This document shows, piece after piece, positions 2,368-26,294 of a stretch of 26,422 bases of DNA (position 1 is the first letter of the stretch; each line of letters begins with the position of its first letter). The notes under the pieces were generated by a model, which saw nothing but the letters and a program-made list of their open reading frames with translations, ran no database searches and was not told the DNA's origin. The stretch comes from Gracilariopsis chorda (Eukaryota; Rhodophyta; Florideophyceae; Gracilariales; Gracilariaceae). Position numbers and translations under genes: made by a program. Where the stretch lies: the NCBI GenBank assembly GCA_003194525.1, contig NBIV01000562.1, positions 1-26,422 of the forward strand, in the 5' to 3' direction.

Positions 2368-2385
2368 GGTTATGGGACCAGCCCC
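2368..2385 (+). other. A2 primer-binding site
   Basis: GGTTATGGGACCAG directly follows the LTR. It matches the anticodon-arm complement of initiator tRNA-Met used by copia-type elements, with one change (GGGACC instead of GGGCCC in A3, A4 and C) that would leave a mismatch with the primer. Confidence 0.75.
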
Positions 2386-3310
2386 GCTTACCGCTGCCGC
2401 TATCCCTTTCCGTATCGTTCGTCTGTCGCCGCTCTCCCTCACCGCCGTTCATCCGTTTCGCTGTTGTTGCCTCTTTCGTCGTTGCGTCGGGTGTCTTGAT
2501 CCCATTGCTGGTCGGTGTTGGTCATTCTCCTTTGGTTTGCGTTCCTCCCTGAGGGCGTTGGGGTGGTAGTGGTTCGACGTTTACTTCCTACCGTTGTTGA
2601 GTTGGGCCTCCGTTGTTGCCCGTGTTGTCGATCGCTATCTACTTTGTGTGTGACACTCCCTCTATCTTGTGTTTTGGGATCCACGAGTCGTTTGTTGGGT
2701 CGTATCCGTGAGGTTGAGTCGGTCTAGTTTCGAAGTCTGCGCTCCGTGATCGTGTGCTCAGCAGTTGTTTGTTTTTTCGTGTTTCTTAATCAACATCTGG
2801 TGTCCAGTGCGACGAGCGGTTGATCCGGGATACTTTGGGTGATTCCAGGTATCCGTGGACGTGAGCCTGGCGGCTTGAACCAAAGCGGATGTACTGTCGA
2901 GCGGCTTCCCACCGGTCCATTTGGACAGATAACGGTGACGGTCGTTAAGACCTGGTAAGTTCAGCGGGTGCATCTGTGGACGGGGTGCCGTGGCGTACTG
3001 CGCTGGTGCGGGTGATTGAATTATTTGTTTTGATCCTGACTGTGTGTCAAGATTCTTGGGCTGTTGCGAAGGTATTCCATAACGAGCTTTTGATCCGTGC
3101 ATCTGACCCTTGGGCGTTTGTGCGGGGAGGCGACGTGGCGTAGGCTGACCTTAAGTGGTTGAGCGTTAGCAGCGTACTTTGGTTGCCATAGTAGCTTCAG
3201 TTTCGAGGTCGCGCAAGTTCTTGCAAAAGGCCAGAAAGGGTTATACTTGGTGAAGGCATATCTTGGGTCATTAACCATCCTCTGGAAGCCTCGTAGAGAG
3301 TGACGCATCT

Positions 3311-3429
3311 TCTCCTTAGACGTAGGAGAGGGAAGACAGAAGAAGACGTCTTGTACCCGGAGCATCTCCGGGGGCCAGGGGTCCGACACCCTAGGGTAGC
3401 GGAGGTAGTTCCTCCCGTCAGTGCGCCCG
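3311..3429 (+). promoter_or_regulatory. A2 conserved four-hairpin leader module
   Basis: Four stem-loops in order. H0 is TCTCCT/AGGAGA with a 7-nt loop (3311-3329). H1 is CCCGGAG/CTCCGGG with loop CAT (3356-3372). H2 is AGGG/CCCT (3377-3392). H3 is GGAGG/CCTCC with loop TAGTT (3401-3415). The tail CGTCAGTGCGCCCG ends at 3429. The same order and spacing recur in families B and C. A 10-bp palindrome AAGACGTCTT (3343-3352) lies between H0 and H1. The function is not known; packaging, dimerisation or translation control are candidates. Confidence 0.7.
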
Positions 3430-3438
3430 AATTTGAAG

Positions 3439-3488
3439 TTTTGTTGTTGTTGTCGTCGTTGTTTTTGTTGTTATTGTTGTCGTTGTTG
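3439..3488 (+). repeat. TTG/TCG-rich tract before A2 gag
   Basis: Imperfect TTG triplets with occasional TCG and TTA. The same tract stands at the same place in A3 and A4 with small differences in copy number. It ends about 70 nt before the gag ATG and makes a T-rich 5' UTR end. Confidence 0.75.
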
Positions 3489-3558
3489 CCATTTTTGTAC
3501 TACTTAAGTGCCGTAGGTCTTTCATCGCACCTGTGCTGTTTGTTGACATCTACCAAGC

Positions 3559-4983
3559 ATGGATTCATTCGGTGGCATCAAGATTGAAAAGTTGGGCGAG
3601 GATAACTTCCATGTATGGAAGCAAAAGGTTGAGTTGCTGCTTGCACTCAAGGACCTCGATGACCATCTTGAATCAACCAGGCCTACGGAAGATGACGAGT
3701 TGTCAGCATGGAAGAAGAAAGACGCCAAGGCCAGGGCTGTTATTGGTCTCAGCATCAGTGATGAGCATTTGGACCATGTGAGGGATACCGAGAATGCTGC
3801 GGAAATGTGGAAAGCCATTTGCGATGTGTTCCAGCGTAAAACGCTGCTCAACCGAATCAATGCAAGACGTGCCTTCTACACAGCCAAGATGCGAGATGAT
3901 GAGAAAATGTTACACTTCATCAATCGTGTTCGTCTTCTTGCATCGGATGTGAAGAGCATGGACGTAGTGGTTGATGAAGAAGCCATCGCTATGGCAATCC
4001 TATGTGGGCTACCAGACCGTTTCGAACATCTCATTGTCGCTCTTGACACCACCATTGGTGATCGCAAACTCGATTTAGAGTTTGTGAAGAGTCATTTGCT
4101 GCAAGAGGAACAGCGAATGAACGATCGTGCCAAGGAGGAGTCCGGAAGTGACACGGCTTTGGTCGGTGCGCAGTCACGAAAGAAGTCCATGGTGTGCTAC
4201 TACTGTGGTAAGAAGGGGCATATCCAGAGAAACTGTTTCAAGAGACAACGTGACGAAGCTAGCAAAGAGCAGAGTGCTGCCGCAAACCCAGCTGTGCAGA
4301 CCGATCTCGGCAACGAGAAACGAGGATGTGACAGTGACTCTGACGTTGTTTGTCTCATTGCCACAGGTTCTGTGGAAGAAAGTATCAGTGACTGGATCAT
4401 TGACTCTGGTGCCACCGCCCATATGACGTATGACGAGTCCATGTTTGACAGTTATAGCAAAAGAGAGTCTGCCGGTGTGAGTATCGGCAATGACTCGAAG
4501 CTGGAGTCTCTTGGTCATGGCAGTGTCCACCTCGATCTCGCTGTTGAAGGGCGTAAGAGCAAGTGCCGGTTGGGTGAAGTAGTGCACGTACCGAATTTAA
4601 GGTATCATCTGCTGTCAGTATCTGCGATGTGTGACCTGGGTGCCCGAGTGGTGTTTGACGAAACCAAAGTATGTGTATACAAAGGCACCACCATGATCGC
4701 CCAGGGCCGTCGCATGAAAGGACTGTACTACCTATGTACCGCGATTGAAGTACCAGAAGACATGGACAACGCACTTGTGACTGACCTGTCACTATGGCAT
4801 GCTCGAATGGCTCATTTGAATGTGGATGGTATCAAACATATGGCTCGTAACGGTGTTGTGTCAGGGCTGAATGTGGACTTGAATCAATCGATGGATGTGT
4901 GTGACTCTTGTGTAGTGGAAAATCTACACGTGCTCCAACTCCCAAGCAAGGGGGGGAACGGGCTTTGCACCCATTGGACCTAG
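3559..4983 (+). CDS. A2 Gag, protease and N-terminal integrase (5' part of broken polyprotein)
   Basis: This is the first part of the family A polyprotein. The start is the ATG in CCAAGCATGG, kept in A3 and A4. Residues about 10-190 form the copia-type Gag region that builds the virus-like particle. A CCHC zinc knuckle follows (C213, C216, H221, C226), which binds the element RNA. Next is an aspartic protease with the D282-S-G motif that cuts the polyprotein. The pre-integrase domain comes next (LYYL near 388, WHARMAH at about 413), and then the CDSC zinc pair (C448, C451). A single-base loss near 4917-4918, where A1 and A3 read GTGGGAAAA and A2 reads GTGGAAAA, throws the frame off. The last 20 or so residues are therefore aberrant and the frame stops at 4983. 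The rest of integrase continues in another frame. Identity as a copia Gag-protease is very secure. Confidence 0.93.
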   Translation: MDSFGGIKIEKLGEDNFHVWKQKVELLLALKDLDDHLESTRPTEDDELSAWKKKDAKARAVIGLSISDEHLDHVRDTENAAEMWKAICDVFQRKTLLNRINARRAFYTAKMRDDEKMLHFINRVRLLASDVKSMDVVVDEEAIAMAILCGLPDRFEHLIVALDTTIGDRKLDLEFVKSHLLQEEQRMNDRAKEESGSDTALVGAQSRKKSMVCYYCGKKGHIQRNCFKRQRDEASKEQSAAANPAVQTDLGNEKRGCDSDSDVVCLIATGSVEESISDWIIDSGATAHMTYDESMFDSYSKRESAGVSIGNDSKLESLGHGSVHLDLAVEGRKSKCRLGEVVHVPNLRYHLLSVSAMCDLGARVVFDETKVCVYKGTTMIAQGRRMKGLYYLCTAIEVPEDMDNALVTDLSLWHARMAHLNVDGIKHMARNGVVSGLNVDLNQSMDVCDSCVVENLHVLQLPSKGGNGLCTHWT

Positions 4984-10007: not shown

Positions 10008-10102
10008 TACGCGATCACAGGCAGAGTTCGGGTACTCAACGCCCGGAGTATACTCACAGGACGTACTGATACGAGCCTGGACAGAAATAAAACTTCTTAA
10101 GA

Positions 10103-10225
10103 CGGGCGCACTGGCAGGAGATACTATCCCCGCTACCCTAGAGGTCCGAATCCTCTGGTCCCTGGTAACTCTCTCCAGGTGAGATGCGGTTTCTGCAACC
10201 AATCCTGCTCTGCGCACTTCAGAGC
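10103..10225 (-). promoter_or_regulatory. Family B four-hairpin leader module
   Basis: On the - strand: H0 GCTCTG/CAGAGC with loop AAGTGCG (10225-10207), H1 CCTGG/CCAGG (10179-10161), H2 AGAGG/CCTCT with a 7-nt loop (10156-10140), and H3 GGGGAT/ATCTCC with one G-U pair (10131-10117). The tail ends GTGCGCCCG at 10103. Spacers H1-H2 (4 nt), H2-H3 (8 nt) and the 14-nt tail equal those in A and C. Confidence 0.7.
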
Positions 10226-10550
10226 GAGGGGCTTTACAATCCGTACGAGACGTCCAAGGGAGGCTAGTAGCTGACGCGATAAGCTTTCACCAGTTAACCC
10301 CTTCTAGTCGCTTGCCGGAAAATAGCGCGGTCTTCCTTGTGCGCTGAAGCAAAGAAGCAGGGATCGGAACAGGGGCAGGTCGGCTTACCAGAGAAGGTGT
10401 CTCTGAACGCTTTGCCTACTTTCACCACTGCCACTCGACTTCCACAAGATTCGCTCGCTCGCAACGCAACGCGTACCTGCGCGAAAGAAAAACCAGTCTT
10501 CGTAGAATCCAAAGAGATATTAGTAGAGCTCGACGTCTGCAAAAAGTCGA

Positions 10551-16377: not shown

Positions 16378-17330
16378 GCTGACCGCTGCCGCTATCCCTT
16401 TCCGTATCGTTCGTCTGTCGCCGCTCTCCCTCACCGCCGTTCATCCGTTTCGCTGTTGTTGCCTCTTTCGTCGTTGCGTCGGGTGTCTTGATCCCATTGT
16501 TGGTCGGTGTTGGTCATTCTCCTTTGGTTTGCGTTCCTCCCTGAGGGCGTTGTGGTGGTAGTGGTTCGACGTTTACTTCCTATCGTTGTTCAGTTGGGCC
16601 TCCGTTGTTGCCCGTGTTGTCGATCGCTATCTAATTTGTGTGTGACACTCCCTCTATCTTGTGTTTTGGGATCCCCGAGTCGTTTGTCGGGTCGTATCCG
16701 TGAGGTCGAGTCGGTCTAGTTTCGAAGTCTGGGCTCCGTGATCGTGTGCTCAGCAGTTGTTTGTTTTTCGTGTTTCTTAATCATCATCTGGTGTCCAGTG
16801 CGACGAGCGGTTGATCCGGGTTACTTTGGGTGATTCCAGGTATCCGGGGACGTGAGCCTGGCGGCTTGAACCAAAGCGGGTGTACTGTCGAGCGGCTTCC
16901 CACCGGTCCATTTGGACAGATAACGGTGACGGTCGTTAAGACCTGGTAAGTTCAGCGGGTGCATCTGTGGACGGGGTGCCGTGGCGTACTGCGCTGGTGC
17001 GGGTGATTGAATTATTTGTTTTGATCCTGACTGCGTGTCGGGATTCTTGGGCTGTTGCGAAGGTATTCCATAACGAGCTTTTGATCCGTGCATCTGACCC
17101 TTGGGCGTTTGTGCGGGGAGGCGACGTGGCGTAGGCTGACCTCCTTCTTAGGATCAGGCCGCGTGTGACCTTAAGTGGTTGCGCGTTAGCAGCGTACTTT
17201 GGCTGCCATAGTAGCTTCAGTTTCGAGGTCGCGCAAGTTCTTGCAAGAGGCCAGAGAGGGTTATACTTGGTGAAGGCATATCTTGGGTCATTAACCATCC
17301 TCTGGAAGCCTCGTAGAGAGCGACGCATCT

Positions 17331-17449
17331 TCTCCTTAGACGTAGGAGAGGGAAGACAGAAGAAGACGTCTTGTACCCGGAGCATCTCCGGGGGCCAGGG
17401 GTCCGACACCCTAGGGTAGCGGAGGTAGTTTCTCCCGTCAGTGCGCCCG
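17331..17449 (+). promoter_or_regulatory. A3 four-hairpin leader module
   Basis: Same as in A2: H0 17331-17349, H1 17376-17392, H2 17397-17412, H3 17421-17435, tail to 17449. H3 here is GGAGG/TCTCC, so one G-C pair of A2 has become G-U and the stem can still form. Confidence 0.7.
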
Positions 17450-17578
17450 AATTTGAAGTTTTGTTGTTGTTGTTGTCGTTGTTTTTGTTGTTATTGTTGT
17501 CGTTGTTGCCATTTTTGTACTACTTAAGTGCCGTAGGTCTTTCATCGCACCTGTGCTGTTTGTTGACATCTACCAAGC

Positions 17579-22400: not shown

Positions 22401-23619
22401 GGTTATGGGCCCAGCCCCGCTGACCGCTGCCGCTATCCCTTTCCGTATCGTTCGTCTGTCGCCGCTCTCCCTCACCGCCGTTCATCCGTTTCGCTGTTGT
22501 TGCCTCTTTCGTCGTTGCGTCGGGTGTCTTGATCCCATTGTTGGTCGGTGTTGATCATTCTCCTTTGGTTTGCGTTCCTCCCTGAGGGCGTCGTGGTGGT
22601 AGTGGTTCGACGTTTACTTCGTATCGTTGTTGAGTTGGGCCTCCGTTGTTGCCCGTGTTGTCGATCGCTATCTACTTTGTGTGTGACACTCCCTCTATCT
22701 TGTGTTTTGGGATCCCCGAGTCGTTTGTCGGGTCGTATCCGTGAGGTCGAGTCGGTCTAGTTTCGAAGTCTGGGCTCCGTGATCGTGTGCTCAGCAGTTT
22801 TTTGTTTTTCGTGTTTCTTAATCATCATCTGGTGTCCAGTGCGACGAACGGTTGATCCGGGTTACTTTGGGTGATTCCAGGTATCCGGGGACGTGAGCCT
22901 GGCGGCTTGAACCAAAGCGGGTGTACTGTCGAGCGGCTTCCCACCGGTCCATTTGGACAGATAACGGTGACGGTCGTTAAGACCTGGTAAGTTCAGCGGG
23001 TGCATCTGTGGACGGGGTGCCGTGGCGTACTGCGCTGGTGCGGGTGATTGAATTATTTGTTTTGATCCTGACTGCGTGTCGGGATTCTCGGGCTGTTGCG
23101 AAGGTATTCCATAACGAGCTTTTGATCCGTGCATCTGACCCTTGGGCGTTTGTGCGGGGAGGCGACGTGGCGTAGGCTGACCTCCTTCTTAGGATCAGGC
23201 CGCGTGTGACCTTAAGTGGTTGCGCGTTAGCAGCGTACTTTGGTTGCCATAGTAGCTTCAGTTGCGAGGTCGCGCAAGTTCTTGCAAGAGGCCAGAGAGG
23301 GTTATACTTGGTGAAGGCATATCTTGGGTCATTAACCATCCTCTGGAAGCCTCGTAGAGAGCGACGCATCTTCTCCTTAGACGTAGGAGAGGGAAGACAG
23401 AAGAAGACGTCTTGTACCCGGAGCATCTCCGGGGGCCAGGGGTCCGACACCCTAGGGTAGCGGAGGTAGTTTCTCCCGTCAGTGCGCCCGAATTTGAAGT
23501 TTTGTTGTTGTTGTTGTCGTTGTTTTTGTTGTTATTGTTGTCGTTGTTGCCATTTTTGTACTACTTAAGTGCCGTAGGTCTTTCATCGCACCTGTGCTGT
23601 TTGTTGACATCTACCAAGC
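22401..23619 (+). other. A4 primer-binding site and untranslated leader
   Basis: It begins with GGTTATGGGCCCAGCC and is otherwise the same leader as A3, with the 28-nt segment present and the antisense frame (23450 to 22977) open. The TTG tract is at about 23500-23549. No sense gene seen. Confidence 0.8.
23372..23490 (+). promoter_or_regulatory. A4 four-hairpin leader module
   Basis: H0 23372-23390, H1 23417-23433, H3 23462-23476 with the G-U pair seen in A3, tail to 23490. Identical in design to A3. Confidence 0.68.
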
Positions 23620-25738: not shown

Positions 25739-25756
25739 GGTTATGGGCCCAGAGCG
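25739..25756 (+). other. Family C primer-binding site
   Basis: GGTTATGGGCCCAGAGCG after the LTR end CATCA, the initiator tRNA-Met anticodon-arm type. Confidence 0.8.
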
Positions 25757-26059
25757 TCGATTCTTTGCAGACGTCGCGCTTTACTAATTCTTTTATTTGC
25801 GTTCTACGAAGCTGTTCTTGCGAGAAGTTTTGCGTATCTTGTGGAGGTACAGTTGTTGTGGTGAAAGTAGGCAAAGCGTTCAGAGACCCCTTCTCTGGTA
25901 AGCCGACCTGCGCCTTTCCGATCCCTGCATCTGTGCTTCAGCGCACAAGGAAGACCGCGCTATTTTCCTGCAAGTGTCTAGCAGGGGTTAACTGGTGAAC
26001 GCTTATCGCGACAGCTACTAACCTCCCTGGGACGACACGTAGGGATTATAAAGCCCCTC

Positions 26060-26183
26060 GTTCTGAAGTGCGCAGAACAGGGTAGGTCACGAAGAATTTC
26101 GTACCTCACCTGGAGAGAGTTACCAGGGTCCAGGGGTTCAACCCTTAGGGTAGCGGAGATAGTATCTCCCGTCAGTGCGCCCG
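26060..26183 (+). promoter_or_regulatory. Family C four-hairpin leader module
   Basis: H0 GTTCTG/CAGAAC with loop AAGTGCG (26060-26078), H1 CCTGG/CCAGG (26109-26127), H2 AGGGG/CCCTT with loop TTCAA (26132-26146), H3 GGAGAT/ATCTCC (26155-26169), and the tail CGTCAGTGCGCCCG to 26183. Compared with B, H0 and H2 carry compensatory changes. Confidence 0.7.
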
Positions 26184-26280
26184 CTTTTACGAAGTTAGTT
26201 TCCTTTCCGAGTGTGCTTCAGAGCTGCTCGTGAGTATACTCCAGGCGTCGAGAACCCGAAATCCGCCTGTGATTCGCGTA

Positions 26281-26294
26281 CCAGACGCGTCTGG
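26281..26294 (+). other. Family C leader palindrome
   Basis: CCAGACGCGTCTGG, perfectly self-complementary, at the place of CGAGACGCGTCTCG in family B. Confidence 0.55.

Follow-up and report, generated by a model that had tools for sequence, protein, structure and literature searches.

A conserved leader RNA of about 220 nt in several copia families of Gracilariopsis chorda: a candidate packaging and dimerisation signal

Introduction

The packaging signal of retroviruses such as HIV-1 is a series of ordered hairpins between the primer binding site (PBS) and gag, with a dimer-initiation hairpin among them and a zinc-knuckle Gag protein as partner. In copia elements the cis-acting signals in the RNA are ill defined, and even the packaging signal of Ty1 is described as imprecisely mapped (PMC8396678). 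For the 5' part of the Ty1 genomic RNA the same account gives a proposed packaging signal at +230-580, the palindromes PAL1 and PAL2, the PBS with its boxes and a pseudoknot (PMC8396678). Conserved dimerisation and packaging signals are spoken of for BARE2 of barley (PMC3735527), and the leaders of the pararetroviruses CaMV and RTBV are described as long and structured, serving both translation and packaging (PMC5902531).

The DNA analyzed here, called the window throughout, is the whole stretch of 26,422 nt of contig NBIV01000562.1 from Gracilariopsis chorda. It represents a nest of copia elements with gag, integrase and RVT_2 domains and, in the A elements, LTRs of about 740 nt. The A elements carry PF14223, PF00665, PF25597 and PF07727 in that order together with LTR repeats, which places them within Ty1/copia. 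Successive A elements in the window appear to share LTRs. An original prediction had described four ordered stem-loops (H0 to H3), followed by a GTGCGCCCG tail, in the leaders of three copia families (A, B and C) and had interpreted them as a selected RNA structure. In this work the prediction was followed up by computational analysis of the window and of further copies from the same genome.

Results

Layout of the Leader RNA

H0 to H3 and the tail were found exactly where they had been placed: at 26060-26183 in copy C, at 10225-10103 on the minus strand in copy B and at 3311-3429, 17331-17449 and 23372-23490 in the three A copies. The spacings are correct in A, B and C as well (4 nt between H1 and H2, 8 nt between H2 and H3, 15 nt for H3 and 14 nt for the tail), and so are the stems of H1 (CCCGGAG/CTCCGGG in A, CCTGG/CCAGG in B and C), H2 (AGAGG/CCTCT in B, AGGGG/CCCTT in C) and H3 (GGAGG/CCTCC in copy A2, GGAGG/TCTCC in window copy A3, GGAGAT/ATCTCC in C and GGGGAT/ATCTCC in B). 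The boundaries of the element, on the other hand, had been drawn too short. The pieces named make up only its 3' half: the complete leader RNA measures about 220 nt, and its 5' half is a long hairpin composed of the helices P0, P1 and P2; both this hairpin and a small hairpin termed H0b had been missed. In copy C, conservation starts at about position 25965, i.e., 95 nt 5' of 26060, in an alignment of 50 leaders with 240 columns.

Based on this alignment, the conserved core of copy C comprises positions 25965-26185 of the plus strand. The corresponding cores are found at 17238-17451 (plus strand, copy A2) and 10101-10320 (minus strand, copy B) by alignment, at 3218-3431 (plus strand, copy A1) in the same register as 17238-17451, and at 23279-23492 (plus strand, window copy A3). 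All further coordinates of the core refer to the plus strand of copy C. Its 5' domain (25965-26046) consists of P0 (25965-25969/26042-26046), P1 (25974-25978/26034-26038) and P2 (25982-25987/26024-26029), separated by the conserved internal loops GCAA and CGTA. These helices, like H1 (26109-26127), H2 (26132-26146) and H3 (26155-26169), are supported by pair counts and by the strands of the individual lineages. The H0 hairpin (26060-26078) was taken from single-sequence folds and was left out of the pair counts because its register shifts by one column between families. Between H0 and H1 lies H0b (26084-26106, with an AGGT/ACCT base), likewise placed by folding and likewise outside the pair counts, a small lineage-variable hairpin which is weak or absent in lineages A3, D, D2, E and F3. 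H2 and H3 are connected by the single-stranded linker AGGGTAGC (26147-26154), and H3 is followed by the tail (26170-26183) with its near-invariant CAGTGCGC, both defined from the alignment. The linker had been called invariant; near-invariant is the appropriate term, as L038, L062 and L084 deviate among the added copies.

Distribution within the Genome

The module is shared by families A, B and C as predicted, which turned out to be part of a larger set. A pattern of 35 places covering linker, H3 and tail, searched with up to three mismatches, gave 859 matches in the alga's own genome of 91.3 Mb and 1081 contigs (435 and 424 by strand), and the reversed pattern gave none. Together with the window, 102 fetched loci formed a sample of 103 records, all from this one genome, and a regular expression identified the module in 99 of them (L020, L021, L086 and L097 were missed) at 104 places. 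L069 and L068 were excluded for a non-homologous 5' part or a partly deleted module, and clustering of the remaining 102 places at 97% resulted in the 50 leaders of the alignment, with a mean pairwise identity of 0.71 and a minimum of 0.52. H3 is biased against pairing in this sample, because 42 of the 102 loci (L061-L102) came from searches favoring a changed H3. The diverged leaders D2 (L066), A3 (L088) and B2 (L084) gave further matches at 73-90% with self-matches excluded, and in total at least six leader families with hundreds of copies are present in this one genome. Some module matches form tandem arrays, recurring every ~4970 nt (C39), every ~8070 nt (C55) or every 3907 nt exactly (C202, four copies); six copies of the C39 array retain the gag region, as seen within the 1.5 kb compared when 30 loci were set against the window.

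Compensatory Evolution

For the analysis of compensatory changes a set of 31 pairs in the six helices P0, P1, P2, H1, H2 and H3 was counted in the 50 leaders, all less than 97% identical. Pairing amounts to 88.6%, compared with 80.9% in shuffles; 18 pairs changed on both sides, compared with 12.4; and compensated double-change cells number 139, compared with 46.2, a value that none of 500 shuffles reached. When the structure is slid by one to three columns, the double-change cells drop to 11-32. Both shuffles and slides flatter the structure, because it was derived from the sequences in which it was then counted. To allow for relatedness, changes were additionally counted by parsimony on a FastTree tree made from the unpaired columns only. 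This gave 24 pair-keeping double changes, compared with one to five in ten slid versions and with a mean of 4.0 and a maximum of 12 compensatory events when the same columns were re-paired at random 200 times. The tree also contains 106 pair-breaking events, compared with 25-85 in the slid and a mean of 65.4 in the re-paired versions, figures to be read in light of the fact that slid pairs start less paired and that many copies are decayed or were picked for a changed H3.

Exchanging the 3' strands among 12 lineages, each represented by a single sequence (20,000 permutations), never reached the observed pairing of P0 and resulted in p values of 0.0005 for P1, 0.0003 for P2, 0.016 for H1 (a value affected by misaligned A leaders), 0.055 for H2 and 0.009 for H3. 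In a joint permutation over six families the real order of 3' strands took rank 1 of 720. P1 illustrates the pattern, with the strands GAGGC/GCCTC in A, GAGAC/GTTTC in F, GGAAC/GTTCC in D and GTGTC/GACAC in C.

A G-test with APC, in which the 50 leaders were compared with 200 tree-simulated alignments, gave no pair at E ≤0.5; the top-scoring of the 22,155 column pairs is a P1 pair, and many high scores belong to family-specific positions. The stacking count is no better than its null (17 vs. 19.3 at 85% pairing, 39 vs. 35.0 at 80%). The covariation anticipated for a larger alignment therefore holds as whole-structure counts, which show matched pairing and compensatory evolution of the leader RNA, but not in the strict test of single pairs.

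Folding

The minimum free energy structure contains the long hairpin P0-P1-P2 in five of ten single leaders (A, A2, D, D2 and E); in C a form of it appears in the MEA structure only, and B, F, L033 and L084 fold otherwise. Folding energies are ordinary, the whole core having z-scores from -1.7 to +0.8 in 12 lineages. In the same lineages, the 5' domain ranges from -3.6 to +0.7 and H1-H3 from -1.4 to +1.8, and the H0 interval lies between -2.3 and -3.2 in six and between -1.1 and +0.7 in the other six. RNAalifold recovered only part of the helices from a MAFFT alignment. The A, D, E and F lineages could form a closing helix from a GCA before H0 and a TGC of the tail; it is not claimed here, because B, B2 and C cannot form it and the tail hardly varies. 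With stability and single-pair significance being ordinary, the case for the structure rests on compensation across the families.

Host Elements and Gag Classes

The Gags of the elements carrying the leader RNA form three classes, namely A, B/C/F and D/E. The gag start of copy A1 (Retrotran_gag_2 with zinc knuckle, Pfam domains) is located at 3559-4983 on the plus strand, and zinc knuckles were detected by Pfam in the Gags of A and E and by eye in that of C. Among organism-named matches, those scoring best with the A Gag are unnamed Chondrus crispus proteins (39-41% identity), and a transcript protein given without species name matches at 74%. Gag identities are 28% over 96 residues between A and B, 19% between A and E, 20% between C and E and 69% between B and C, and the reverse transcriptases of A and B are 35% identical. 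For these four Gag pairs, in the order given, leader identities are 61, 63, 71 and 82%.

Recent recombination between A, B and C, which had been considered as a competing explanation of their likeness, is disfavored: since three Gag classes with only 19-28% identity where alignable carry the leader RNA, it does not explain the sharing. Judged from these identities, the leaders (53-87% between lineages) are far better kept than Gag between the classes, yet fall short of the near-identity to be expected from a recent exchange. An older exchange of leaders between families may have occurred. Compensatory counts and Gag divergence together support the central claim of the original prediction, a selected RNA structure common to several copia families.

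Position, Primer Binding Site and AUG Depletion

The leader RNA is situated between the PBS and gag. A gag match on the same strand was present downstream in 74 of 79 module sites, counted in L001-L082 where 700 nt or more follow the module; query C alone contributed 30 of the loci searched. The distance from the tail to the implied gag start is 127-131 nt in A, 106-149 nt in D/E and mostly 341-356 nt in B/C/F, with outliers of 200 and 724 nt. From the tail through the following 300 nt towards gag, E and D elements likewise agree at 77-79% (query L037).

The PBS of C, GGTTATGGGCCCAG, was assigned to 25739-25752 on the plus strand by likeness, and that of B, GTTATGGGCCCAG, likewise by likeness, from 10567 on the minus strand. 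Those of the A copies, at 2368 (one base different), 16360 and 22401 on the plus strand, adjoin the LTR by LTR comparison. In D and E leaders a PBS was not identified. The distance from the PBS to the GGGTAGC linker depends on the family and ranges from 266 to 1026 nt. We take the PBS to pair with the anticodon arm of a typical initiator tRNA and not with its 3' end, presumably in the manner of the half-tRNA priming of Drosophila copia. ARAGORN detected no tRNA in the window, and two patterns based on the 5' half of a typical gene (up to three mismatches) found no initiator tRNA gene in the own genome; an intron, an unusual sequence or an assembly gap may account for the missing match.

Downstream of the LTR, the PBS supplies the first AUG, which opens a frame of 14 codons in B and C and of 49-65 codons in A. 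From there to gag, with the PBS excluded, ATGs number 1, 0, 0, 0 and 1 in 1179, 1179, 781, 773 and 638 nt of two A leaders, C, B and F, respectively, and the 888 nt preceding gag contain one ATG in the E leader and one in the D leader. Mononucleotide shuffles of these seven leaders predict 9.8-17.2 ATGs, and none of 2000 shuffles of each was as low. The A leader is AUG-poor for hundreds of bases 5' of the core too, with a near-AUG-free span at 2368-3558. Of all 64 trinucleotides, ATG is the least frequent in the 50 cores (25 in total, the next 47): 32 cores are free of it and 18 hold one or two, which corresponds to a mean of 0.50 per core, compared with 1.42 after dinucleotide and 3.33 after mononucleotide shuffling. 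Across 57 unique leaders divided into 100-nt bins, ATG is low throughout the leader and returns near gag. CAT, i.e., ATG on the other strand, exceeds ATG in most leader bins and is also low near the core in B/C/F and D/E. The depletion of sense-strand AUG suggests linear scanning, which would select such an AUG desert.

Palindromes

Downstream of the tail and outside the shared core, copy C has two perfect palindromes on the plus strand. The first, GAGTATACTC, comprises 10 nt (26232-26241) and also occurs in the B leader and in the F leader L035. The second comprises 14 nt (26281-26294) and is present in L033, L062 and L078 and absent in L035; its version in B differs from that in C by matched, i.e., compensated, changes. 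The A, D and E leaders examined are devoid of these two palindromes and have others of 8-12 nt. No clear excess of palindromes was observed, the leaders having 3-6 compared with 2.6-3.7 after shuffling. The 10- and 14-nt palindromes of B and C are candidates for dimerisation sites.

Database and Literature Searches

The original prediction had matched the module to no named motif, which is true for Rfam 15: there were no matches in the window at the gathering score, and with E values up to 10 the leader of C gave nothing but two noise matches on the opposite strand (E 2 and 4.8). A self-cleaving ribozyme of the retrozyme type was rejected, as no Rfam ribozyme matched the window or the leader of C. 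In a viral collection the module pattern matched L103 and L104 exactly, which is regarded as chance because the surrounding DNA is unlike the leader by eye; a gag search of this collection gave none and the 5'-domain pattern zero matches. A collection of prokaryote genomes gave zero matches as well. Among the open-access titles listed on copia leaders, dimerisation, packaging, primer tRNA and upstream AUGs, on LTR elements with conserved RNA structure, on RNA structure of red-algal retrotransposons and on red-algal and Chondrus copia elements, none was found to describe the leader RNA.

Discussion

The best single reading of the leader RNA is a packaging/dimerisation signal of the genomic RNA, a candidate role to which we assign a probability of roughly 0.48. 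It is preferred because of the position of the element, the zinc-knuckle Gags and a place resembling the proposed packaging region of Ty1, and with 74 of 79 sites followed by gag the element lies where a packaging signal is expected. On one and the same RNA, ribosomes would reach gag by scanning the leader. The structured element would tag the genomic RNA for binding by zinc-knuckle Gag, for dimerisation and for packaging into virus-like particles. A host partner would fit at least as well as Gag, because the RNA stayed alike while Gag diverged.

The original prediction had offered translation control next to packaging or dimerisation; the latter stays the likeliest function, and the former loses ground. 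A role in translation, be it internal ribosome entry, shunting or a brake that limits the amount of Gag, would suit an element in the leader 5' of gag at these 74 of 79 sites, and the PBS AUG, coming first after the LTR with its 14-codon frame in B and C, would suit it too. Nevertheless we consider such a role unlikely, because the leaders are nearly AUG-free (0-1 in seven leaders, where 10-17 are expected), which points to linear scanning, and because the distance to the gag AUG varies by family from 106 to about 355 nt. Internal ribosome entry becomes less likely, since neither a fixed distance to the start codon nor tolerated upstream AUGs were found, some types being less strict in this respect. 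A shunt leader is marked by a large hairpin with a short reading frame closing directly in front of its base; in C, ~180 nt separate the end of the 14-codon frame from the core, which speaks against shunting at the core. Structured leaders are described as driving shunting in plant pararetroviruses (PMC5902531), which speaks for the general idea of a translation element. That a host factor recognizes the element to export the full-length RNA from the nucleus or to stabilize it would agree with an RNA kept across Gag classes that are only 19-28% identical where alignable, although no Rfam family was matched, and we rate this as rather improbable. Such an element would work like the constitutive transport elements, which are known from some retroviruses and mouse retroelements.

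An element of reverse transcription, holding the primer tRNA or placing the template near the PBS, appears doubtful. The PBS adjoins the LTR in A and, by likeness, in B and C, and 6 nt of the nearly invariant tail would pair with the D arm of a typical initiator tRNA of eukaryotes; but a match of 6 nt easily arises by chance, the two patterns revealed no host initiator tRNA, and the PBS lies at widely family-dependent distances 5' of the linker. The ordinary folding energies, the lack of a significant pair in the simulated-tree G-test and a stacking count at its null would all be compatible with no function whatsoever, i.e., shared leader ancestry plus chance pairing in GC-rich sequence. This is very improbable in view of the 24 compensatory events against one to five for slid structures on the same tree, the first rank among 720 orders of 3' strands in six families, and the best of 22,155 column pairs lying in P1.

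We also put forward a wider proposal, tentatively and with the odds against it: a new two-domain RNA family of ~220 nt, long kept while the Gags fell to ~20% identity, whose partner would likely be a host factor or another RNA and not Gag alone, so that the leader would carry a host-read "genomic RNA passport", shared by several copia lineages of this alga, together with a selected AUG desert as long as 1.2 kb. An RNA so well kept next to Gags that diverged poses a sharp question, namely whether Gag or the host is the reader. With natural compensatory changes across at least six families and hundreds of copies in one genome, there is enough material to propose a structure without probing.

We judge the leader RNA to be a new RNA family in a known kind of role. 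With retroviral packaging signals it shares several ordered hairpins between PBS and gag and the zinc-knuckle Gag; it differs in having no match in Rfam and in that striking palindromes are found in only some families. Like the leaders of CaMV and RTBV it is part of a long structured leader, but those are described as carrying several short reading frames and as being shunted (PMC5902531), whereas the copia leaders analyzed here are nearly AUG-free. The BARE elements of barley are copia elements as well, for which separate RNA pools, some of them spliced, are described (PMC3735527); the likeness noted here is one of description. The closest parallel is Ty1, likewise a Ty1/copia element with a structured cis-acting RNA at the 5' end and with primer site and dimerisation palindromes nearby (PMC8396678). 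While the signal of Ty1 is described as imprecisely defined, a pseudoknot close to the 5' end being the structural motif known from it (PMC8396678), the leader RNA presented here, deduced from sequence alone, is a row of hairpins with a near-invariant linker and tail 3' of the PBS.
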